A stretch of DNA of 64,000 nt from Sphingobacterium sp. N143 (GTDB lineage Bacteria > Bacteroidota > Bacteroidia > Sphingobacteriales > Sphingobacteriaceae): positions 271,913-335,912 of the forward strand of contig NZ_JACAIS010000002.1 in NCBI RefSeq assembly GCF_030325625.1, in the 5' to 3' direction. Made by a program: the position numbers and the translations under genes. The notes beneath the pieces were generated by a model that saw only the letters and a program-made list of their open reading frames with translations, was not told where the DNA came from and did no database searches. Below are positions 10,766-25,851 of this stretch, piece after piece (positions within the stretch are counted from its first letter, which is position 1; each line of letters opens with the position of its first letter).

Positions 10766-11678
10766 GTCGGCGTAAATTCTTGATCACTTTTTTTGATGCT
10801 TTGACGATCGTACCATGCTTATGCCCAACAGGCACAGCGATCTGATCATTGATTGTTGTAAAGGTTTTGAAATCTTTGGTTGCCACGGCTTCATAGCGCT
10901 TGCTGCCATAAGAATCAAAATAGATCAACCATTGGTCTTTGATTTTCACAACGCTTGGCCCTTCGGTTAAGTAAGCCGAAAAAGGTGCGGAGATCTGCTC
11001 AAAGGGCCCCAATGGATTGCTAGCAAATGCAACACGCAGATCCCTATTTGGCCGTGTGTTATCCTTCAAGACCAATACATAATCTTGCTCCGCTTTTTTG
11101 ACAATGACGGCGTCGATGATACTAAACCCCGGGTCACTGAATAATTTCGTTTCGGTAAACGTGTTGAAATCTTTTGTCGTGGTATAGTACATGCGATGAT
11201 TGTTGTCTTCGGCTTCCTTACCTTTGGCAAAACGATAAGGTATTGTTGAGGCCCAGATAATGATAAATCTATTCTCCACATCATCATAAAACAATTCTGG
11301 AGCCCATACATTGACCGTGGAAGATTCATGCTGCATGACGGGGATGATCTTTTGGTCTTCCCAATGAATCAAGTCCTTGGAATGGGCATATCCAATCCCT
11401 TCATTTCCTTTCCAGCCAATGGTCCATACCAGATGGTAGGTCCCCTGTTTATCCCGTATGATGGAGGGATCCCGCATGATTTTCTGTGTCCCCAGTTCAG
11501 GTTTCAGATAGATTCCTGAGATAGATTGCCAATGATAGCCGTCTTCACTATAGAGATAACGAAGTCCTTCGTTAGCCGGCTCATGAAAGGAGGTAAACAG
11601 ATAGCTATCTTTCTGACAGGAAACAAGCCATGTTACTGTCATCAACAAGAGACCCCATGCTTTTATTTTTCTCATCAT
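10746..11678 (-). CDS. GH43-like five-bladed propeller glycosidase, lipoprotein
   Basis: I chose the ATG at 11678 because it overlaps the upstream stop as ATGA and gives a clean lipoprotein signal (MMRKIKAWGLLLMTVTWLVSC, lipobox LVSC); a longer frame reaches 11702 but has no signal-like start. The mature protein shows the three acidic positions expected of GH43: the base Asp70 in MRDPS, the pKa-modulating Asp189 in SIIDAVI and the acid Glu239 in LTEGPS. At about 310 residues it is a single-domain form. GH43 members release arabinofuranose, xylose, galactose or galactofuranose. As an outer-membrane or periplasmic lipoprotein it would trim side chains. The substrate is not readable from sequence. 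The end overlaps the next gene by 20 bases. Confidence 0.82.
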   Translation of the reverse strand: MMRKIKAWGLLLMTVTWLVSCQKDSYLFTSFHEPANEGLRYLYSEDGYHWQSISGIYLKPELGTQKIMRDPSIIRDKQGTYHLVWTIGWKGNEGIGYAHSKDLIHWEDQKIIPVMQHESSTVNVWAPELFYDDVENRFIIIWASTIPYRFAKGKEAEDNNHRMYYTTTKDFNTFTETKLFSDPGFSIIDAVIVKKAEQDYVLVLKDNTRPNRDLRVAFASNPLGPFEQISAPFSAYLTEGPSVVKIKDQWLIYFDSYGSKRYEAVATKDFKTFTTINDQIAVPVGHKHGTIVKASKKVIKNLRRHESKKK

Positions 11679-13135
11679 ACCGAATCCAGAATCAATACCC
11701 AATCGTTACCTTCCTGCTGTCCACCTTCCGGTGTAAAGTGCTGCACCCCTTTGTTTGTGAACTCGCCGATAGCCTTTGTTTCACCATTTCGCGGGTTAAA
11801 CCAGGAAGCTTTCACTTTGTCCCCTTTAATTTTTCCCATGTTGACCTGCATGGGTTGACCTGTATAATTATAGATAAAAGCATACCTATCGGTCCGTGTT
11901 GCCAGGAGACGATTGTATTTTTCGCCATTGACCGCAAGCAAGGACTGGTCTGGTACCCGGTCAAAATAATTGTCCCGGGAGAGCATCAGTTCTTTTAAAT
12001 ATTTCATCTGTGCAGCCCCTGGCGCATGAATGGCCGAAGACCAGATTTCATCCGATCCGTAGGCTGAGGTCGTATCTTTTTTGGAATGCATCTGCATGAC
12101 CGAATTCTGGCCATAGGTATAGCCAAAAGCACCTGCGAAGACGGACCAGTAGCCATATCTTCTTACGTCAGCATCAGTCCAGCGTGGTTCTTTAATATCA
12201 TGCAATCCCTGTGGGATGCCTTCATACGAAGGTTCCCCATCAATGGTTGGCTTGGTTGGTTTGAGATCCCAATCGGCCGCCATGAACTTCCAATTGTCCT
12301 CACCATAATGTTTTTGTTCATTTTTGGAGGTATCCTGATCGTATCGTCTATGTCCGGATTGAACCATATTAAAATCCAGCCAAGATTGCTTGTGAAACCA
12401 ATCCGACGAGGCTGTTCTTCCTCTGGGATGAAAGGTCATGAGATGATGCTGATCAATGGACTTGATGGTTTGGGCGATCTTCTCCCAGACTTCCATTTGA
12501 TCAGAGCCCTTGATATCGCCTCCGTTTAACCAGATGATATTGGGGCGATCTTTCCATCGTTCGGCGAGGAATTTCGCGTACTTTTCAGCTTGCTCAACCG
12601 ACACTTTCCCGTCTTTGACCGGCGATCCCCAGACAGGCACCAAGGCCATATATATTCCTTTTTCGGCAGCTTTGTCAATGATATAATCGATATGATCCCA
12701 ATAATCATATTCGGCGGTATTGTCCGAGTTGCTACCGGCGGTGACCAATGGTCTTGAGACATCGTTATTCGTCACCGATGAATCGCCATAGGCATTCACG
12801 GATGGAACCGTGTGCAATACCATAGCCTGAACCACATTAAATCCTTTTTGTTTTCTATCCTCCAGGTATTGTGCTGCTTCCTCCCGATTCATCTTATTGA
12901 ACAGCAACCAGCCCGTATCACCCAACCAGAAGAAAGGCTTACCATCTTCGGTTGCAACATAGCGCTGGTTTTCAGAGATCTTCAACAACGGCAGCTCTTT
13001 ACGCTCTTTTTCGGAAGCACAGGAAAAAACCGTTCCGATAATAGCGCATGATAAAAGGCTCCTATAGACGGCTTTCCAGTTCCGCATTCCTGTTGGTTGT
13101 GTGTATAAATAGGGATATTTCTTGTGCATCGACAT
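11675..13135 (-). CDS. GH140-like apiosidase (DUF4038-type barrel), lipoprotein
   Basis: The protein of 486 residues has a DUF4038-type TIM barrel: FFWLGDTGWLLF near residue 68, YDYWDHIDYIIDKAAEKGIYMALVPVWG, then IIWLNGGDIKG with the probable acid Asp207 and TIDGEPSYEG with the probable nucleophile Glu301. This is the layout of GH140, the family of the apiosidase that removes apiose-linked side chains from rhamnogalacturonan II. The start at 13135 leaves a long hydrophilic lead; the Met at 13087 (MRNWKAVYRSLLSCAIIG) gives a lipoprotein signal with Cys39 in VFSC. It lies eight bases after the beta-helix/barrel gene. Its presence is the main clue that the locus handles an apiose-bearing pectin. 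Family call is good; the precise substrate is inferred. Confidence 0.85.
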   Translation of the reverse strand: MSMHKKYPYLYTQPTGMRNWKAVYRSLLSCAIIGTVFSCASEKERKELPLLKISENQRYVATEDGKPFFWLGDTGWLLFNKMNREEAAQYLEDRKQKGFNVVQAMVLHTVPSVNAYGDSSVTNNDVSRPLVTAGSNSDNTAEYDYWDHIDYIIDKAAEKGIYMALVPVWGSPVKDGKVSVEQAEKYAKFLAERWKDRPNIIWLNGGDIKGSDQMEVWEKIAQTIKSIDQHHLMTFHPRGRTASSDWFHKQSWLDFNMVQSGHRRYDQDTSKNEQKHYGEDNWKFMAADWDLKPTKPTIDGEPSYEGIPQGLHDIKEPRWTDADVRRYGYWSVFAGAFGYTYGQNSVMQMHSKKDTTSAYGSDEIWSSAIHAPGAAQMKYLKELMLSRDNYFDRVPDQSLLAVNGEKYNRLLATRTDRYAFIYNYTGQPMQVNMGKIKGDKVKASWFNPRNGETKAIGEFTNKGVQHFTPEGGQQEGNDWVLILDSV

Positions 13136-13143
13136 GATAGATA

Positions 13144-16100
13144 TTAGTGTTTAGCGATCCAGATAATTTCTGGACTGTTCATATAATTGTTGAGGTGAAG
13201 TTCTTTTCTTGCATTTATTTTTTCGGTCTTCACGATGTTGCCATTTTTTGGATCAATATGCTGGACAAGGAAACGGCCCTTAAGAGCGTTCATATCCAGA
13301 TCCAAGGCTGCTGAGGACGCATTATAAACAATCATTCCCTGATCAGACTTTAAGGTCCAATGGCCATTGAGCACTTCAGCCTGCATCCCTGCCGCTGCCC
13401 TGTAAAAATCAGGAGTTGCAATTTTGGGTAAATTAGCCATGGATCCTCCAGCCATAAAAGCGGCCCAGGCCATTTCCGGATAGTTATCTCCGTTGTATAA
13501 AACGGCTTTCTCCGGATATTTTTTGCGGTATTCAGTGACTGCCTTATACACTGCTTCCAGTGAAGTTTTCTTCGGTTTTAACAATCTTGCATGTTGGCGG
13601 GGAGCAAGGTTCTGCCCTCCTTTGGGTGCATAAGTCGATCCATCTGCCTGATAGTGCCAATAGCGGATATCGATGACCTGAATTTCTTTGGACCGCTCTG
13701 GATCGGCGAGTATTGCATCCTGCACATCTTTGGTCGTGCTCAAAGCAATAATCGGCTGTTTCCCGGTTTCGGTCTTCCATTCTTTAATCACGTCAATCCA
13801 GAATTGTACGAACGCCAAAGGGCCTGTGTATTCCGCACTGATCAACTGAATGACCCCGGAATTGTCTTTGAAATTGTCCAGGCACTGCCGGATATAAGCC
13901 CGATGTAAAGCCCGACGGACGGGATGATGAATATCATAAAACTGCTCCGCCATAAAAATGCGCTTATCGCCCGCATAAGGAACAGGCTCCGGAAAACCGA
14001 CATTATTGATATTGTTGGCTGTGCGCCAAGGAAAATCTGCGTAATGGGCCCCAGCCTCAATAATATTATGTTGAAAATAATTCTGGTGAATCAATACAAG
14101 ACCTTTTTGATCCGCCAAATCCGCATATTGCTTTAGGCGGCCCCAGTAAAACGGGTTATATTTTGTGAGATCATATTTAGACAGGCCATCGTAAGCAAGA
14201 CCAGTACCACTTCTGGCGAAGGGCAGTTCATAGAAAGGCGGCCAAACCTCCCCATTGATGCGACGGATACGCTCGTGGTCGTCTCTGCGCCGATCGTACC
14301 ACAATCCGTAGTTATGGTCGATCGCCAATATATTGTTTTGACGCATGCTATCGGTCATAGCATCCAGGTCATCGGTCAACCCATTGCCAATTTCTCCAGG
14401 GACATACCGGGTGATATGCGGCTTGGCTTTCACTGCACCGTATGGTCTTGCGGAACCGTTCCACCAGTTTACCTCCGATCTATTTCCCACCAAAACAACA
14501 TCGCCCCTGACCAGCCAACCGTTCCGTATTTTCATATCCGGCTGCTTCGGCTGCGGAATATTTTCGTTGTAACCAATCTGGTCTATTGTTTTGGCCTTGC
14601 CTGCAAGGATATTGAGCGGTGCCCTATGCTCGGCCTGTTGAATAAAATCAATTAATTGTAAAGCCGGCTGAGCAGCCTGTTTCGTTAAATCCATCGCGAC
14701 TTCCACAGGCGGGCTACTGGAAGCCTCCGTCAGTACAGGTAACAATATCGCGCGGTCATTTGCGGCCTTCCCAATGCGGTCCGCCAATTGTGCATAATAC
14801 AAACTTCGAGGCTTGATATATTCATTGGACTGCTCCCAATACCCGTCACCCTGGAATTGTGCCCATATACCAAAAGCCCAATTTTGTGCCGTTGGTGGTT
14901 GGTAACACTCCACGAGGCCTGCTGTCGATTGCCAAAAAACACTGTTGGCCGCCGACCAGCCAGCACCTTGTCCATCCTGACCCCGGTTTTTATAACTTAA
15001 TGCCTGTGCATCAATATCGGCAATATCGAATAAAACGCCTGAGGCCCAGCTATCAATCGCCCCGCTGAAACTAAAAGGTTCCACGGCCTGGCACTGCACA
15101 AAAGCATTTGGACCTGCGGCAAGGTAACCAACAGCAAAATCATGATAGCCCTGTTTTGAATAAAGGCGTTGAAATAAAGTTTGCTGACCTTTGGTCAAGA
15201 AGGTATAACGTCTCTGGCCCCCAATCTCTGATACCGGATCCAAGGAGATACAATCTTCTACCGTTAACTTCTTTGTACTTTCCAATGCATATACTGCTGA
15301 TCCTGCAAAATGCCTGAACTGTACACGGCGCACCCAGGTATTCTCAGCATCTGCAATGGTAATGGCCATCCAGCGATGGTCTTCGTCTTTCAGGTTATGC
15401 TGATTATAAGTGGATTGAAGCGTTATATTTTCGACACCTACCTGTGCAATGCGCCCGTCCCAAACGTATTTTGCCACGGTTGCCTGACCATACTGTTGAT
15501 CCAAGGCGGTTGTAATTGGTGCATCGATTTCGATTCGGTTACCACGGACTGCCACGACTGTTCTATCCCAGCTGATATCCCGTTGTCCAGGTTTCCAACC
15601 CAAGGAGGTAAGTCCACCCCCGAAATGAGCAGTTCCCAAGGTATTTATCCACGATTGCGTGGCCGGCCGCGTAATAATGAGCGGATCACCAACACGATAG
15701 CCTGAAGCATTTTCTACCTCAAATTCCCGGGCATTTACCGGAACATAAGCTGAAATGATTTTACTTTTTTCTTTCAGCCGCATGTCGTTTTTGCCAGCTA
15801 TACGAATGAGTGTTTCGCGTGTGGTACCTGTTCCGATGAGCGTTGTTCCACCTACTGTAAAACCACTCCCCCGCAAGATCACACCGGAGGTATGTAGCAC
15901 AAGCGATCCAGACACTTGATAAGTCCCTTTTTCTAACAATACCACGCCCCTCAACCCATCTTTGCCTAAAGGCAAACGCGAAACATAATCCAGCGCCGCT
16001 TGTATGCGGCGGGTGGCATCGCCCGATTTGACCGGTACAACAACTTCAATCCGGCCATCCGGAATGGCACTATTGCCACCCATATAGCCGGCATAGGAAA

Positions 16101-16245
16101 AATCCGGAAGCTGATTTCCCAGCGAATCTTTTTTATAGACCAGCTGTGTACCGTCCCAGGTCAGGGGGCTCACCGTCTTTTCTTGCGCTTGGACAGCACA
16201 AAAGAACAAGCAAATACCTATAAAGAAAATACCCTTTATTTTCAT
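13144..16245 (-). CDS. Secreted beta-helix plus TIM-barrel-like fusion (DUF6298-like), probable pectin enzyme
   Basis: This 1033-residue protein has a signal peptide (1-20, CAVQAQ). Residues about 65-460 form a right-handed beta-helix of the pectate-lyase/GH28 superfamily type (GDATRRIQAALDYVSRLP, then GVVLLEKGTYQVSG and GVILRGSG). Residues about 570-950 look like a GH-A-type barrel: ILAIDHNYGLWYDRRRDDHER, GLVLIHQNYFQHN, VIQLISAEYTGP with Glu805, and VLYNGDNYPEMAWAAF with Asp920 and Glu924. The end (about 960-1033) is a small beta-domain typical of glycosidases. I associate this layout with DUF6298 proteins found beside GH140 in rhamnogalacturonan II loci, and here it is likewise directly upstream of the GH140 gene. 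Which half is catalytic is unknown. Confidence 0.72.
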   Translation of the reverse strand: MKIKGIFFIGICLFFCAVQAQEKTVSPLTWDGTQLVYKKDSLGNQLPDFSYAGYMGGNSAIPDGRIEVVVPVKSGDATRRIQAALDYVSRLPLGKDGLRGVVLLEKGTYQVSGSLVLHTSGVILRGSGFTVGGTTLIGTGTTRETLIRIAGKNDMRLKEKSKIISAYVPVNAREFEVENASGYRVGDPLIITRPATQSWINTLGTAHFGGGLTSLGWKPGQRDISWDRTVVAVRGNRIEIDAPITTALDQQYGQATVAKYVWDGRIAQVGVENITLQSTYNQHNLKDEDHRWMAITIADAENTWVRRVQFRHFAGSAVYALESTKKLTVEDCISLDPVSEIGGQRRYTFLTKGQQTLFQRLYSKQGYHDFAVGYLAAGPNAFVQCQAVEPFSFSGAIDSWASGVLFDIADIDAQALSYKNRGQDGQGAGWSAANSVFWQSTAGLVECYQPPTAQNWAFGIWAQFQGDGYWEQSNEYIKPRSLYYAQLADRIGKAANDRAILLPVLTEASSSPPVEVAMDLTKQAAQPALQLIDFIQQAEHRAPLNILAGKAKTIDQIGYNENIPQPKQPDMKIRNGWLVRGDVVLVGNRSEVNWWNGSARPYGAVKAKPHITRYVPGEIGNGLTDDLDAMTDSMRQNNILAIDHNYGLWYDRRRDDHERIRRINGEVWPPFYELPFARSGTGLAYDGLSKYDLTKYNPFYWGRLKQYADLADQKGLVLIHQNYFQHNIIEAGAHYADFPWRTANNINNVGFPEPVPYAGDKRIFMAEQFYDIHHPVRRALHRAYIRQCLDNFKDNSGVIQLISAEYTGPLAFVQFWIDVIKEWKTETGKQPIIALSTTKDVQDAILADPERSKEIQVIDIRYWHYQADGSTYAPKGGQNLAPRQHARLLKPKKTSLEAVYKAVTEYRKKYPEKAVLYNGDNYPEMAWAAFMAGGSMANLPKIATPDFYRAAAGMQAEVLNGHWTLKSDQGMIVYNASSAALDLDMNALKGRFLVQHIDPKNGNIVKTEKINARKELHLNNYMNSPEIIWIAKH

Positions 16246-16361: not shown

Positions 16362-17993
16362 TTATTTTTTTTGTGGCACCACAGTCTCCAGACTGACTAC
16401 GCTATTGAGATAATTTTCGATATTGGCATAGCCATTCTTGGCAATTTTTCGCGAATCACCTGGATCATTTGGATTCAATCCCATGCTTTTTTCCACATTG
16501 TCCGGAATACCGTCATTGTCCGAATCTTTGTAAGGAGTACCTTCATAGGATGGATATCCACCAACCTGAGCAATATCGGAGATAATACCCTGCTTGTAAG
16601 AGTCTTCGGGCAAACGGCGTTTGACATAAGGCGATACAAATCCATGCTGTGGTTTATCTTGATTGTAATAGACTTTATTTGTTGAAACCTGTTTAATAAT
16701 CCGGGTATCTACAGCGTCCTGTTTTGGCAAAAATGCACCCACATTTTTAAGCACATATTGATAAGCATCTTGTGCGGAAAGGGTTGTCACTGACGCCATA
16801 GGGAAAGCTTTATCTACGCGGATTTCCTTTTCGCGGTCACCTACATTGGGTAAATCCTCGATCTGGATCCCACCCGCCCAGTTATCTGCAGTAACTTTTG
16901 GAAATCCTTCCACCACATTACCATGGGCATATACTTTTCCATATTGGTCTTTAAAAGCTTTATCCCGTCCGGATTCTGGTTTTAAGATCCGATAGGCAAT
17001 GGGCTTATCTTTTGGTGTGATCGGCCCTGGTTTATAATAATTATTTATAAAATTAAACAAAGACCTGTTATCACCGCCATCAGCACTTCTGTTCCACCAG
17101 TTCCAGATCACGTTGTTGACAAATCCAAAGTCGCCATACATACCGATGGAAGGGTTGCGGCTGATATTTGAAGCCCAAAGATTCCGCATGAAGGTGCTGT
17201 TCAAGCCACCAATTGTACTGCCGAAAGCATGGTTATAAGCATCCAGGCATTCAGAAAATATGGAATTCTGAATGGTGATATTGACCGTTGGCAGTTTGAG
17301 GTTTTTCCCTTCCCGATCATAGACATGGCGATAAATGGACATGTTCTCATCCAGCCCCCAACTTGCTGAGACGTGATCAATCATGATGTTACCCACCGGA
17401 TTACCTCCGATGGCATCGTCCCTGCGAAGCACATCAGTTTCACCTCTACGCATGCGCAGAAATCTTAAAATGACGTCATGGGTATCAATTAAAAAGGATT
17501 CTCCAGCCACACAAACGCCGTCTCCAGGCGCTGTCTGACCAGCGATGGTAATATAGGGTGCTTTCACGACAATCGGTTTCTCAAGTCGAATTATACCAGC
17601 AACATTAAAAACGACGATACGTGCGCCGCCAGCCTCACAGGCCTCCCGCAGTGTCCCAGGGCCGCTATCGGCCAAACTGCTCACAACATAGACCTTACCG
17701 CCCCGGCCACCCGCTGTAAATGCACCGCCACCCTCTGCTCCTGGAAAAGCCTTTAACTCTGCCTGGGGTAGATCACTAGGTTTGGCCGCCCAAGGAATAT
17801 AAGGTTTGCCTTCAGCCTTCATTACTGCCTGTGCCTTTTCCCAGACTTTTTCTAAACGTAGGTCCTCTGCCTTATCGCGGTCCGCAGCTTCCTTTTCTAA
17901 TGATTCTGGAATAACAGGGTACTGTGCCAGTGCAGCTATTGGACTGATTAAGCCCAGAAAAAGAACAATATTTGGATTGAATAGCGATTTCAT
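16362..17993 (-). CDS. PL1-type pectate lyase (copy 1)
   Basis: A 543-residue secreted pectate lyase (signal peptide 1-23, ALAQ). The beta-helix domain starts at FPGAEGGGAFTAGGRGGKVYVVSSL and includes GPGTLREAC, IIRLEKPIVVKAPYITIAGQ, GDGVCVAGE and IMIDHVSASWGLDENMS, the Ca-binding/active cleft block of PL1 enzymes. Near the C-terminus DSDNDGIPDNVEKSMGL is a thrombospondin type 3-like Ca-binding loop. It would cleave polygalacturonate by beta-elimination, in the periplasm or at the cell surface. The paralog at 18113-19744 has the same number of codons and the same layout, so the pair arose by duplication; the loops after IYRHVYD and around residues 370-440 differ most. The 119 bases between them contain a long hairpin. 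Confidence 0.92.
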   Translation of the reverse strand: MKSLFNPNIVLFLGLISPIAALAQYPVIPESLEKEAADRDKAEDLRLEKVWEKAQAVMKAEGKPYIPWAAKPSDLPQAELKAFPGAEGGGAFTAGGRGGKVYVVSSLADSGPGTLREACEAGGARIVVFNVAGIIRLEKPIVVKAPYITIAGQTAPGDGVCVAGESFLIDTHDVILRFLRMRRGETDVLRRDDAIGGNPVGNIMIDHVSASWGLDENMSIYRHVYDREGKNLKLPTVNITIQNSIFSECLDAYNHAFGSTIGGLNSTFMRNLWASNISRNPSIGMYGDFGFVNNVIWNWWNRSADGGDNRSLFNFINNYYKPGPITPKDKPIAYRILKPESGRDKAFKDQYGKVYAHGNVVEGFPKVTADNWAGGIQIEDLPNVGDREKEIRVDKAFPMASVTTLSAQDAYQYVLKNVGAFLPKQDAVDTRIIKQVSTNKVYYNQDKPQHGFVSPYVKRRLPEDSYKQGIISDIAQVGGYPSYEGTPYKDSDNDGIPDNVEKSMGLNPNDPGDSRKIAKNGYANIENYLNSVVSLETVVPQKK

Positions 17994-18112: not shown

Positions 18113-19744
18113 TTATTTTGACGCCAATTGATTCAGGTAAATCTCGATATTAGCATAGCCTGAGGCAGTAATCTTTGCGGAATCGCTCGGATCGTTTGGA
18201 TTTAACCCCATCTGTTTTTCAACATCATCAGGGATACCGTCATTATCGGAATCCTTGTAAGGTTTACCCTTGTAAACAGGATATCCGCCCACTTGGGAAA
18301 TATCGGTGATGATCCCAATTTTATAAGAATCTTTAGATAACCTTCTATGTTCGAAATCTTTTTCAGGCAACTTCACATTGCTCAATAGCTTGACAGGCTT
18401 ACCATTTTTGACATCGGCAATCACCCGTGTATCTACTGGATCCCTTTTCGGCAATGTCGCCCCGGCATGTTCAAGCACAAAGCCATAGGTTTCCTGCGCA
18501 GTCATCACCGGGAAATTCGCATGCGGAAAAGGTTCTTTCACACTCATCGCGGCAAAGTAAGGTTGTGCTTCATTGAAAGTCATTGCATCCCCCTTTTTGT
18601 TCTCTAATTGTATCCCACCATCCCAGTTATTCGCAGTGACCTTCGTGTTGCCCTCCACAATATTTCCTTTTACATGAGCACGGCCAAAAACTACATAAGG
18701 CAATTTGCTTCTTCCCGACTCCGGTTTTAAAATGCGGTAGCTGACTGGCTGATCCAAAGGCGTTGCAGGTCCAGGTTTAAAATAATTGTTCACAATATTA
18801 TAAGTAGCCTGATAATCACCGCCATCAATCGAACGGTGCACCCAGTTGTAAACCACGTTGTTAAAGAAATTAAACAATCCATTCCAGCCAATGGAAGGGT
18901 TTCGTGCGGCATTATTTGCCCAAAGATTGCGCATAAATGTACAGTTCTCTCCGCCCAAAGTACTTCCAAAAGCATGGTTCCAAGTGTCTAAAGCTTCAGA
19001 GAAAATAGAATTTTGGATGGTTATGTTCACTGTCCCTCGTTTTTCCTCTGCTTTTCCCGTACTGTCATTATACATATGACGGTACATGGACATATTTTCA
19101 TCCAGTCCCCAGCTTGCGGAAACATGGTCGATCATAATATTTCCCACCGGGTTTCCACCAATGGCATCATCTCTCCGACCGACATAGGTTTCACCACGTC
19201 TAAAACGCATATGCCGAATCAAAACATCGTGTGTATTCAACCATACCGATTCGCCAGCCACACATATACCATCGCCAGGAGCTGATTGGCCTTCAATACT
19301 GATGTAAGGAGCACGAATAATCAAAGGCGTTTTTAATCTAATAATACCGGAGACATTGAACACGATAATACGGGGACCACCCTTTTCACAAGCTTCCCGC
19401 AAGGTACCCGGACCGTTATCTTCCAAACTGGTCACAACGTAAACCTTACCACCACGCCCGCCGAACGTAAACTTGCCACCGCCTTCCGCTTCTGGGAAGG
19501 CTGGGATAGTCGCTTGCGGTAAATCGGTCGGCCGACCGGCCCAAGGAATATAAGGCTTGCCCTGTTTGGCATATTCTTCTATGACAGGTAGAGCCTTTTG
19601 CCAAGCTTCATCCGATTGTTTGGTCGCTTTGCGCATTAGCTCATCTGTATTCTTCTTGACATCTTCTGGAATTTTGGGATACTGACAAAATGCGATTGAT
19701 GTAATAAGACTCAACAATGCTGTCAGCGTTATTTTTTGTAACAT
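18113..19744 (-). CDS. PL1-type pectate lyase (copy 2)
   Basis: This 543-residue paralog of the protein at 16362-17993 has a signal peptide (1-20, IAFCQ), a helical lead with IPWAGRPTDLPQA, and the same beta-helix blocks: FPEAEGGGKFTFGGRGGKVYVV, GPGTLREAC, GDGICVAGE, GRRDDAIGGNPVGNIMIDHVSASWG. The Ca-binding DSDNDGIPDDVEKQMGL loop near the C-terminus is also kept. It is the first enzyme gene after susD and is separated from it by a terminator-like hairpin, so its expression may be lower than that of susCD. Two lyases in tandem suggest different preferences for chain length or methyl-esterification; that is inference. Family assignment is secure. Confidence 0.92.
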   Translation of the reverse strand: MLQKITLTALLSLITSIAFCQYPKIPEDVKKNTDELMRKATKQSDEAWQKALPVIEEYAKQGKPYIPWAGRPTDLPQATIPAFPEAEGGGKFTFGGRGGKVYVVTSLEDNGPGTLREACEKGGPRIIVFNVSGIIRLKTPLIIRAPYISIEGQSAPGDGICVAGESVWLNTHDVLIRHMRFRRGETYVGRRDDAIGGNPVGNIMIDHVSASWGLDENMSMYRHMYNDSTGKAEEKRGTVNITIQNSIFSEALDTWNHAFGSTLGGENCTFMRNLWANNAARNPSIGWNGLFNFFNNVVYNWVHRSIDGGDYQATYNIVNNYFKPGPATPLDQPVSYRILKPESGRSKLPYVVFGRAHVKGNIVEGNTKVTANNWDGGIQLENKKGDAMTFNEAQPYFAAMSVKEPFPHANFPVMTAQETYGFVLEHAGATLPKRDPVDTRVIADVKNGKPVKLLSNVKLPEKDFEHRRLSKDSYKIGIITDISQVGGYPVYKGKPYKDSDNDGIPDDVEKQMGLNPNDPSDSAKITASGYANIEIYLNQLASK

Positions 19745-25227: not shown

Positions 25228-25851
25228 TTATTGGTTTGTTTTTTTGAGTCGTTCGGCCCACTTGTCTCCTTCTTCTTTTAGGTTATAACCGTGGGAGGCT
25301 AAGTAATTATTGATCTTTCCTTTGTATTTGCCGAACCAGGCATGTTTTTTCTCCGAAGATTCAGCCTGCATAGCAAGATCACGTGCTTCATATAACAAAC
25401 TATCAATTGTATGTACTTCTTCTTTTGTGAGCCGAGGTATCATATCCTGATAAGCCTTCACCGTATTGGGGTATACATTATAGGTCATACCATTCTTAAT
25501 GCCTTCCACTTGTTGGTCTGATAAAACCTCTTTTAGATTTTTTATAAAATATTGGTTTAAATTCGTAGTCTCACGGAGTGTTTCCTGTATAATCTGCTCC
25601 TTTAAACTTTTATCCGTATTATCCTTGATTTTTAGATCCCTTAGCATGTAACATGCGTTTAAAAGAAAATACTGATCACGGATCATATGAACAGCGCGTT
25701 CCTGTTTCGCTTGATCCTGTAGCCCTAATTTTGCCACAATTTTTACCGATCGGTCGGTAATAGTTTTCCAATAGGTATCATCAACTTGACTAAATGTCAT
25801 TGATACACTTAAAAATAAAAATGTAAATAATGTAAATCGTTTCATAGGCAT
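25228..25851 (-). CDS. DUF3826 family secreted protein, first gene of the susCD segment
   Basis: This 207-residue protein has a signal peptide (MPMKRFTLFTFLFLSVSMTFSQ; a second Met at 25845 serves equally) and a helical domain matching the DUF3826 protein at 1123-1779: QERAVHMIRDQYF, then YNVYPNTVKAYQDMIPRLT, then an EARDLAMQAE helix and a C-terminal NYLASHGY. It lies 18 bases before susC and follows a 168-base gap, so it opens the susCD segment. That place next to the transporter suggests an accessory role at the cell envelope in glycan capture or assembly, but nothing in the sequence shows a catalytic site. The family is of unknown function as far as I know. Confidence 0.8.
   Translation of the reverse strand: MPMKRFTLFTFLFLSVSMTFSQVDDTYWKTITDRSVKIVAKLGLQDQAKQERAVHMIRDQYFLLNACYMLRDLKIKDNTDKSLKEQIIQETLRETTNLNQYFIKNLKEVLSDQQVEGIKNGMTYNVYPNTVKAYQDMIPRLTKEEVHTIDSLLYEARDLAMQAESSEKKHAWFGKYKGKINNYLASHGYNLKEEGDKWAERLKKTNQ

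Follow-up and report, generated by a model that had tools for sequence, protein, structure and literature searches.

A pectin-degradation gene cluster of Sphingobacterium sp. N143, a soil-type member of the Bacteroidota, includes a DUF6298 gene. It encodes a protein in which a right-handed beta-helix, probably of pectin-lyase type, is joined to a GH140-like barrel, and this is a real fusion whose barrel probably carries an unusual active site. An original prediction had the helix gripping pectin and the barrel cutting it; the two roles are probably not divided in that way. We give about an even chance to the reading that the protein is an exported pectin degrader, belonging to a rhamnogalacturonan-II (RG-II)-type PUL, with two active-site-like domains: a uronate lyase helix and a non-canonical GH140-like barrel. 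The architecture of the protein, its fold kinship, its conservation and its synteny are established. On this reading the C-terminal barrel descends from GH140/GH-A stock; it retains Glu805, and invariant residues are densely packed on its catalytic face. We infer that the N-terminal helix would act as a uronate (galacturonan-type) lyase, that the barrel would have an activity and substrate of its own, and that the two would cooperate on a substituted, perhaps apiose-bearing, galacturonan.

The gene occupies 13144..16245 on the minus strand of the window, the whole 64,000-nucleotide stretch of DNA analysed. It is an intact reading frame of 1033 codons running from ATG to stop. The single 1033-residue chain had been correctly proposed, with no strand given; the plus-strand reading has stops throughout and was rejected. 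Read by eye, the first ~20 residues resemble a Sec-type signal peptide with no lipobox, so export of the Sphingobacterium sp. N143 protein is likely. Pfam family PF19815 (DUF6298) covers residues 468-954 (E 5e-256; 850 bits against a gathering score of 28.1, model positions 1-487), and the same Pfam scan makes no assignment in the N-terminal half. The literature searched contains no mention of DUF6298, and nothing relevant on BT1013.

As had been noted from the sequence, the gene stands beside an apiosidase gene: the next gene downstream encodes a GH140 enzyme (11675..13135, minus strand; PF13204 E 1e-119; 3kzs E 1e-146). Directly upstream is a pectate-lyase-type gene (16362..17993, minus strand), in tandem with a second (18113..19744, minus strand). 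Both match NCBIfam PelZ (NF041900) only partially, and neither has an enzymatic Pfam match, one of them showing a sub-threshold TSP3 repeat alone. The PUL also has SusC/SusD-like genes, recognised from sequence, and, by Pfam and NCBIfam, genes for GH43, a BT_1020-N-type propeller (GH143 type), a SASA esterase, GH2, GH78, a second GH2 of the BT0996 type, GH95, GH28, a GH138-type alpha-galacturonidase and an MGH1-like hydrolase. The same PUL encodes two free-standing DUF3826 proteins, at 25228-25851 and 1123-1779. The enzyme set resembles the RG-II machinery of B. thetaiotaomicron. The families present point to RG-II as the probable target of the PUL; the roles of the B. thetaiotaomicron enzymes, BT1002 being used among them, have been summarised (PMC7939467).

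PF19815 matches occur in 27 of 395 sampled Bacteroidota genomes, 21 of them above the cut-off, with the full-length form in 19. Scanning a single genome for each species with two patterns, YFQHNI[IL]E and KDVQD[AS]IL, brought up at least 571 bacterial loci encoding DUF6298, and the 80 best were retained; in those examined the gene nearly always lies behind a pectate-lyase-type gene. Among these best 80 of at least 571 loci the closest relatives are in Sphingobacterium. Full-length orthologues share 45-78% identity. All 99 aligned orthologues have the helix and barrel architecture, including two from planctomycete MAGs (L080 and L093). As the matches cover both halves even in the latter, helix and barrel travel together; the fusion is not due to chance and is a widespread two-domain protein.

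Of the 80 loci, 79 have a pectate-lyase-type gene upstream of DUF6298 and in the same orientation; the sole exception (L100) starts at a contig end. GH140 is found in 62 of the 80, each time less than 500 bp away and on the same strand. The pectate-lyase-type gene is therefore the more constant partner, and GH140 was rejected as an obligate one. On a Bacteroides finegoldii plasmid (L167, NZ_OY725888.1) the polysaccharide lyase-DUF6298 pair stands alone, the annotation showing neither SusC/SusD nor GH140 within 15 kb of it; a Rufibacter plasmid carries a longer cluster with GH140 and GH43.

An AlphaFold2 model built on a 55-sequence alignment (mean pLDDT 81, pTM 0.82), together with a model of the C-terminal half alone (mean pLDDT 79, pTM 0.81), shows a GH140/GH5-type (beta/alpha) barrel at residues 564-954 (13384..14556, minus strand; inside the Pfam DUF6298 region), followed by a poorly conserved, GH140-like beta-sandwich at residues 955-1033 (13147..13383, minus strand). 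A barrel in the style of the neighbouring GH140 had been proposed for this half, which is right at the level of the fold. The predicted structure of residues 565-1033 best matches GH140 entry 8t9w (Z 19.7, 335 residues, 3.7 A), then BT_1012 (5msy, Z 18.7) and GH5 mannanases (Z 16-17). The GH140 beta-apiosidases (BT_1012, PDB 3KZS/5MSY; 8T9W; PF13204 plus PF12904) thus have the same barrel and sandwich, with Z 18-20 over ~335 residues, and the same beta-4 position for a catalytic acid. They differ in other respects: structural identity is ~12%, PF13204 (Apiosidase) has no match in the DUF6298 protein at E up to 10, and hhalign of the barrel against GH140 aligns the C-terminal sandwich alone (E 0.0013, probability 18%). 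The DUF6298 barrel has Glu for Asp at beta-4, no conserved Glu at beta-7, long conserved beta-2 and beta-3 loops and the fused helix. By sequence, it finds no match in the PDB.

Closest to the barrel in sequence (hhalign probability 99%) is a set of uncharacterised GH-A-like proteins, each ~500 aa long; they likewise find no PDB match by sequence. Like the DUF6298 barrel they have an invariant Glu after beta-4, in an Asn-Glu pair, and no conserved beta-7 acid (11 aligned); unlike it they lack the helix and the H-xxx-E-xxx-H motif and match PF19815 weakly. This group (L022-L032, L162-L166) matches Pfam only weakly, by way of DUF6298, and some genomes hold several copies.

The original prediction placed a catalytic pair in the motifs SAEYTG (Glu805) and YNGDNYPE (Asp920, Glu924), both of which lie at the positions given. 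The beta-4 acid is supported and the beta-7 acids are not. In the model beta-4 is formed by residues 798-802, and Glu805 (codon 13831..13833, minus strand), just after it, is Glu in 99 of 99 aligned sequences. Because hhalign had aligned the C-terminal sandwich only, correspondence with GH140 was drawn from an ungapped motif match and strand order at beta-4 and from strand order alone at beta-7. Set over IIWLNGGDIKG of the GH140 neighbour, VIQLISAEYTG puts Glu805 on Asp207, which aligns with Asp187 of BT_1012, and in the profile comparison it coincides with the invariant Glu of the Asn-Glu pair in the GH-A-like relatives. The catalytic residues of BT_1012 are D187 and E284 (PMC4032388).

Residues 920-924 (13474..13488, minus strand) follow beta-7 (914-917), and the proposed acids there were rejected on conservation, the very check set out with the original prediction. 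Asp stands at position 920 in 70 of the 99 sequences, replaced in the other 29 by N, G, S, M, P, A, Q or R; at position 924, Glu is present in 12. None of the columns at 918-922 is conserved across the 99, and three orthologues are without any acid in 915-926 and keep the other invariants that were checked. Since 96 of the 99 carry some D or E within the beta-7 loop, the acid may have shifted. Orthologues of the GH140 neighbour keep D207 and E301 invariant (22 of 22), and this pairing of a conserved beta-4 Asp with a beta-7 Glu is not found in DUF6298. Of the features of clan GH-A, the barrel has the fold and the acid/base Glu after beta-4, as judged from the invariance of E805 and the alignment with GH-A-like proteins, and it lacks the conserved nucleophile acid after beta-7.

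The rest of the catalytic face is strongly conserved. Its loops, delimited by hand on the DSSP string, have 54 of 145 residues conserved at >=98%; for the opposite face the figure is 2 of 28 (Fisher p 0.0016). The invariant polar residues include R653, D656, H657, E673, H726, N727, E730, H734, R741, N744, N745, E753, E805, D840, D843 and D859; conservation of 723-730 and 839-846 in the 80 scanned loci was partly selected by the scan patterns, and 18 loci from an HMM search plus two plasmid copies, all independent of the patterns, agree on the conserved residues. The best-conserved loops, 647-690 and 741-746, have low pLDDT. A single predicted helix following beta-3 carries the invariant H726-xxx-E730-xxx-H734 (14044..14070, minus strand), whose spacing would turn all three side chains to the same side. 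They may form a metal or catalytic site, the metal being a guess. As these other catalytic-face loops are highly conserved and beta-7 is not, the barrel is probably functional and probably not a textbook GH-A retaining enzyme. Having no conserved beta-7 acid, it would work by a non-canonical mechanism (with E673, H726/E730/H734, D840 and D859 as candidates) or serve for tight substrate binding.

The N-terminal half had been predicted to hold a pectate-lyase-type helix at about residues 65-460. A right-handed beta-helix is indeed present in the model and its span is longer, ~65-515 (14701..16053, minus strand; VIA-align Z up to 23.9). Compared with the PDB by VIA-align, residues 65-515 match right-handed beta-helices at Z 19-24, including K1 capsule lyase and alginate epimerase/lyase (Z 24, in keeping with a polysaccharide-lyase fold), GH28 polygalacturonase and GH141 BT_1002 (PDB 5MQP, Z 19.4), which is one of the RG-II enzymes of B. 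thetaiotaomicron. The likeness to GH141 is one of fold with no sequence match, and a GH141 identity is not favoured, other beta-helix proteins scoring as high or higher. By sequence there is a weak PDB match to a putative pectin lyase (7chu, E 0.001). PL29, the hyaluronan/chondroitin lyase family of BT_3328 (NF058554), matches helix residues 230-313 locally (E 2.5e-12), over 84 residues only, scoring 45.9 bits where the cut-off is 1100. The helix fold is common to lyases, GH28 hydrolases, epimerases and phage tailspikes, and so does not fix the chemistry. A uronate (galacturonan-type) lyase is the most economical guess and the most likely one, with a hydrolase or an epimerase also possible. 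The motif K286-D-E-x-H290-x-W292 (15370..15390, minus strand), invariant in the orthologue alignment, would form together with R345/R346 a candidate active site.

The helix also exists apart from the barrel. A search with the helix alone finds barrel-free relatives at 34-38% identity in other Bacteroidota, either ~500-670 aa long or larger, the larger ones having CBM96, fn3 or discoidin-type domains. These relatives are secreted and bear sugar-binding domains, and a number of them end in a T9SS sorting tail. Their genes have as neighbours chondroitinase-B-type, PF05426-type and heparinase-type lyases and one GH88 hydrolase, and in several Pfam scans of the relatives in lyase clusters no other catalytic domain was found. 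Across 23 helix sequences of the wider family D48, W217, R228, E272, H290, W304, D407 and N455 are invariant, with E288 close to invariant and Arg or Lys at position 346; these residues are retained in the DUF6298 fusion. Because barrel-free forms of the helix are secreted and encoded in lyase gene clusters, the helix is at least as likely as the barrel to be the cutter, which goes against the assignment of gripping to the helix and cutting to the barrel.

Three other readings have to be weighed. The barrel could be a canonical retaining GH-A glycosidase using E805 with D920 or E924, the helix merely binding pectin. The GH140-like fold, E805, the conserved catalytic face, the prevalence of Asp at 920 and the near-constant presence of some acid in the loop all speak for it. 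We nevertheless regard it as improbable, given the 29 replacements of D920, the 12 sequences only with Glu at 924 and the three orthologues devoid of acid, set against GH140 neighbours that retain both residues, and given a helix that is as strongly conserved as the barrel and occurs without it. Hardly better placed, and improbable in its turn, is the idea of the helix as a non-catalytic scaffold, with the barrel as the sole, non-canonical enzyme. Beta-helix domains can be non-catalytic, and the conservation of the barrel's catalytic face agrees with this idea; the helix loops, however, are about as conserved as those of the barrel, and several Pfam scans of the barrel-free relatives in lyase clusters turned up no further catalytic domain.

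The barrel might instead be a pseudo-glycosidase, a GH140-like enzyme turned carbohydrate-binding domain, with catalysis left to the helix. Loss of the conserved beta-7 acid would fit this, as would a helix that appears to work apart from the barrel elsewhere. We consider it unlikely, though deserving of attention, because E805, R653, D656, H657, E673, H726, E730, H734, D840 and D859 are invariant in 99 sequences, and such polar invariance exceeds what binding alone usually demands. The preferred reading of two active-site-like domains has a bolder form, in which the protein is a bifunctional pectin enzyme founding two CAZy families: a helix lyase, and a barrel pairing Glu805 with a partner outside beta-7, possibly H726/E730/H734, to act on substituted (e.g. 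apiosylated) galacturonan. This we hold to be unlikely.

Should helix and barrel both be active, the DUF6298 protein would fill a gap in pectin breakdown. A GH-A-type barrel that has the beta-4 acid without a conserved beta-7 acid, found in two related groups, offers a testable case of a change of mechanism, and one that would fall within the best studied glycosidase fold.

Elsewhere in the Sphingobacterium sp. N143 genome, on contig C17 (L160:9288-12047), a member of the helix family with 34% identity is fused behind a GH88/105-type hydrolase domain. It adjoins a PF05426 (alginate-lyase-type) gene, making this a second uronan cluster in the genome.
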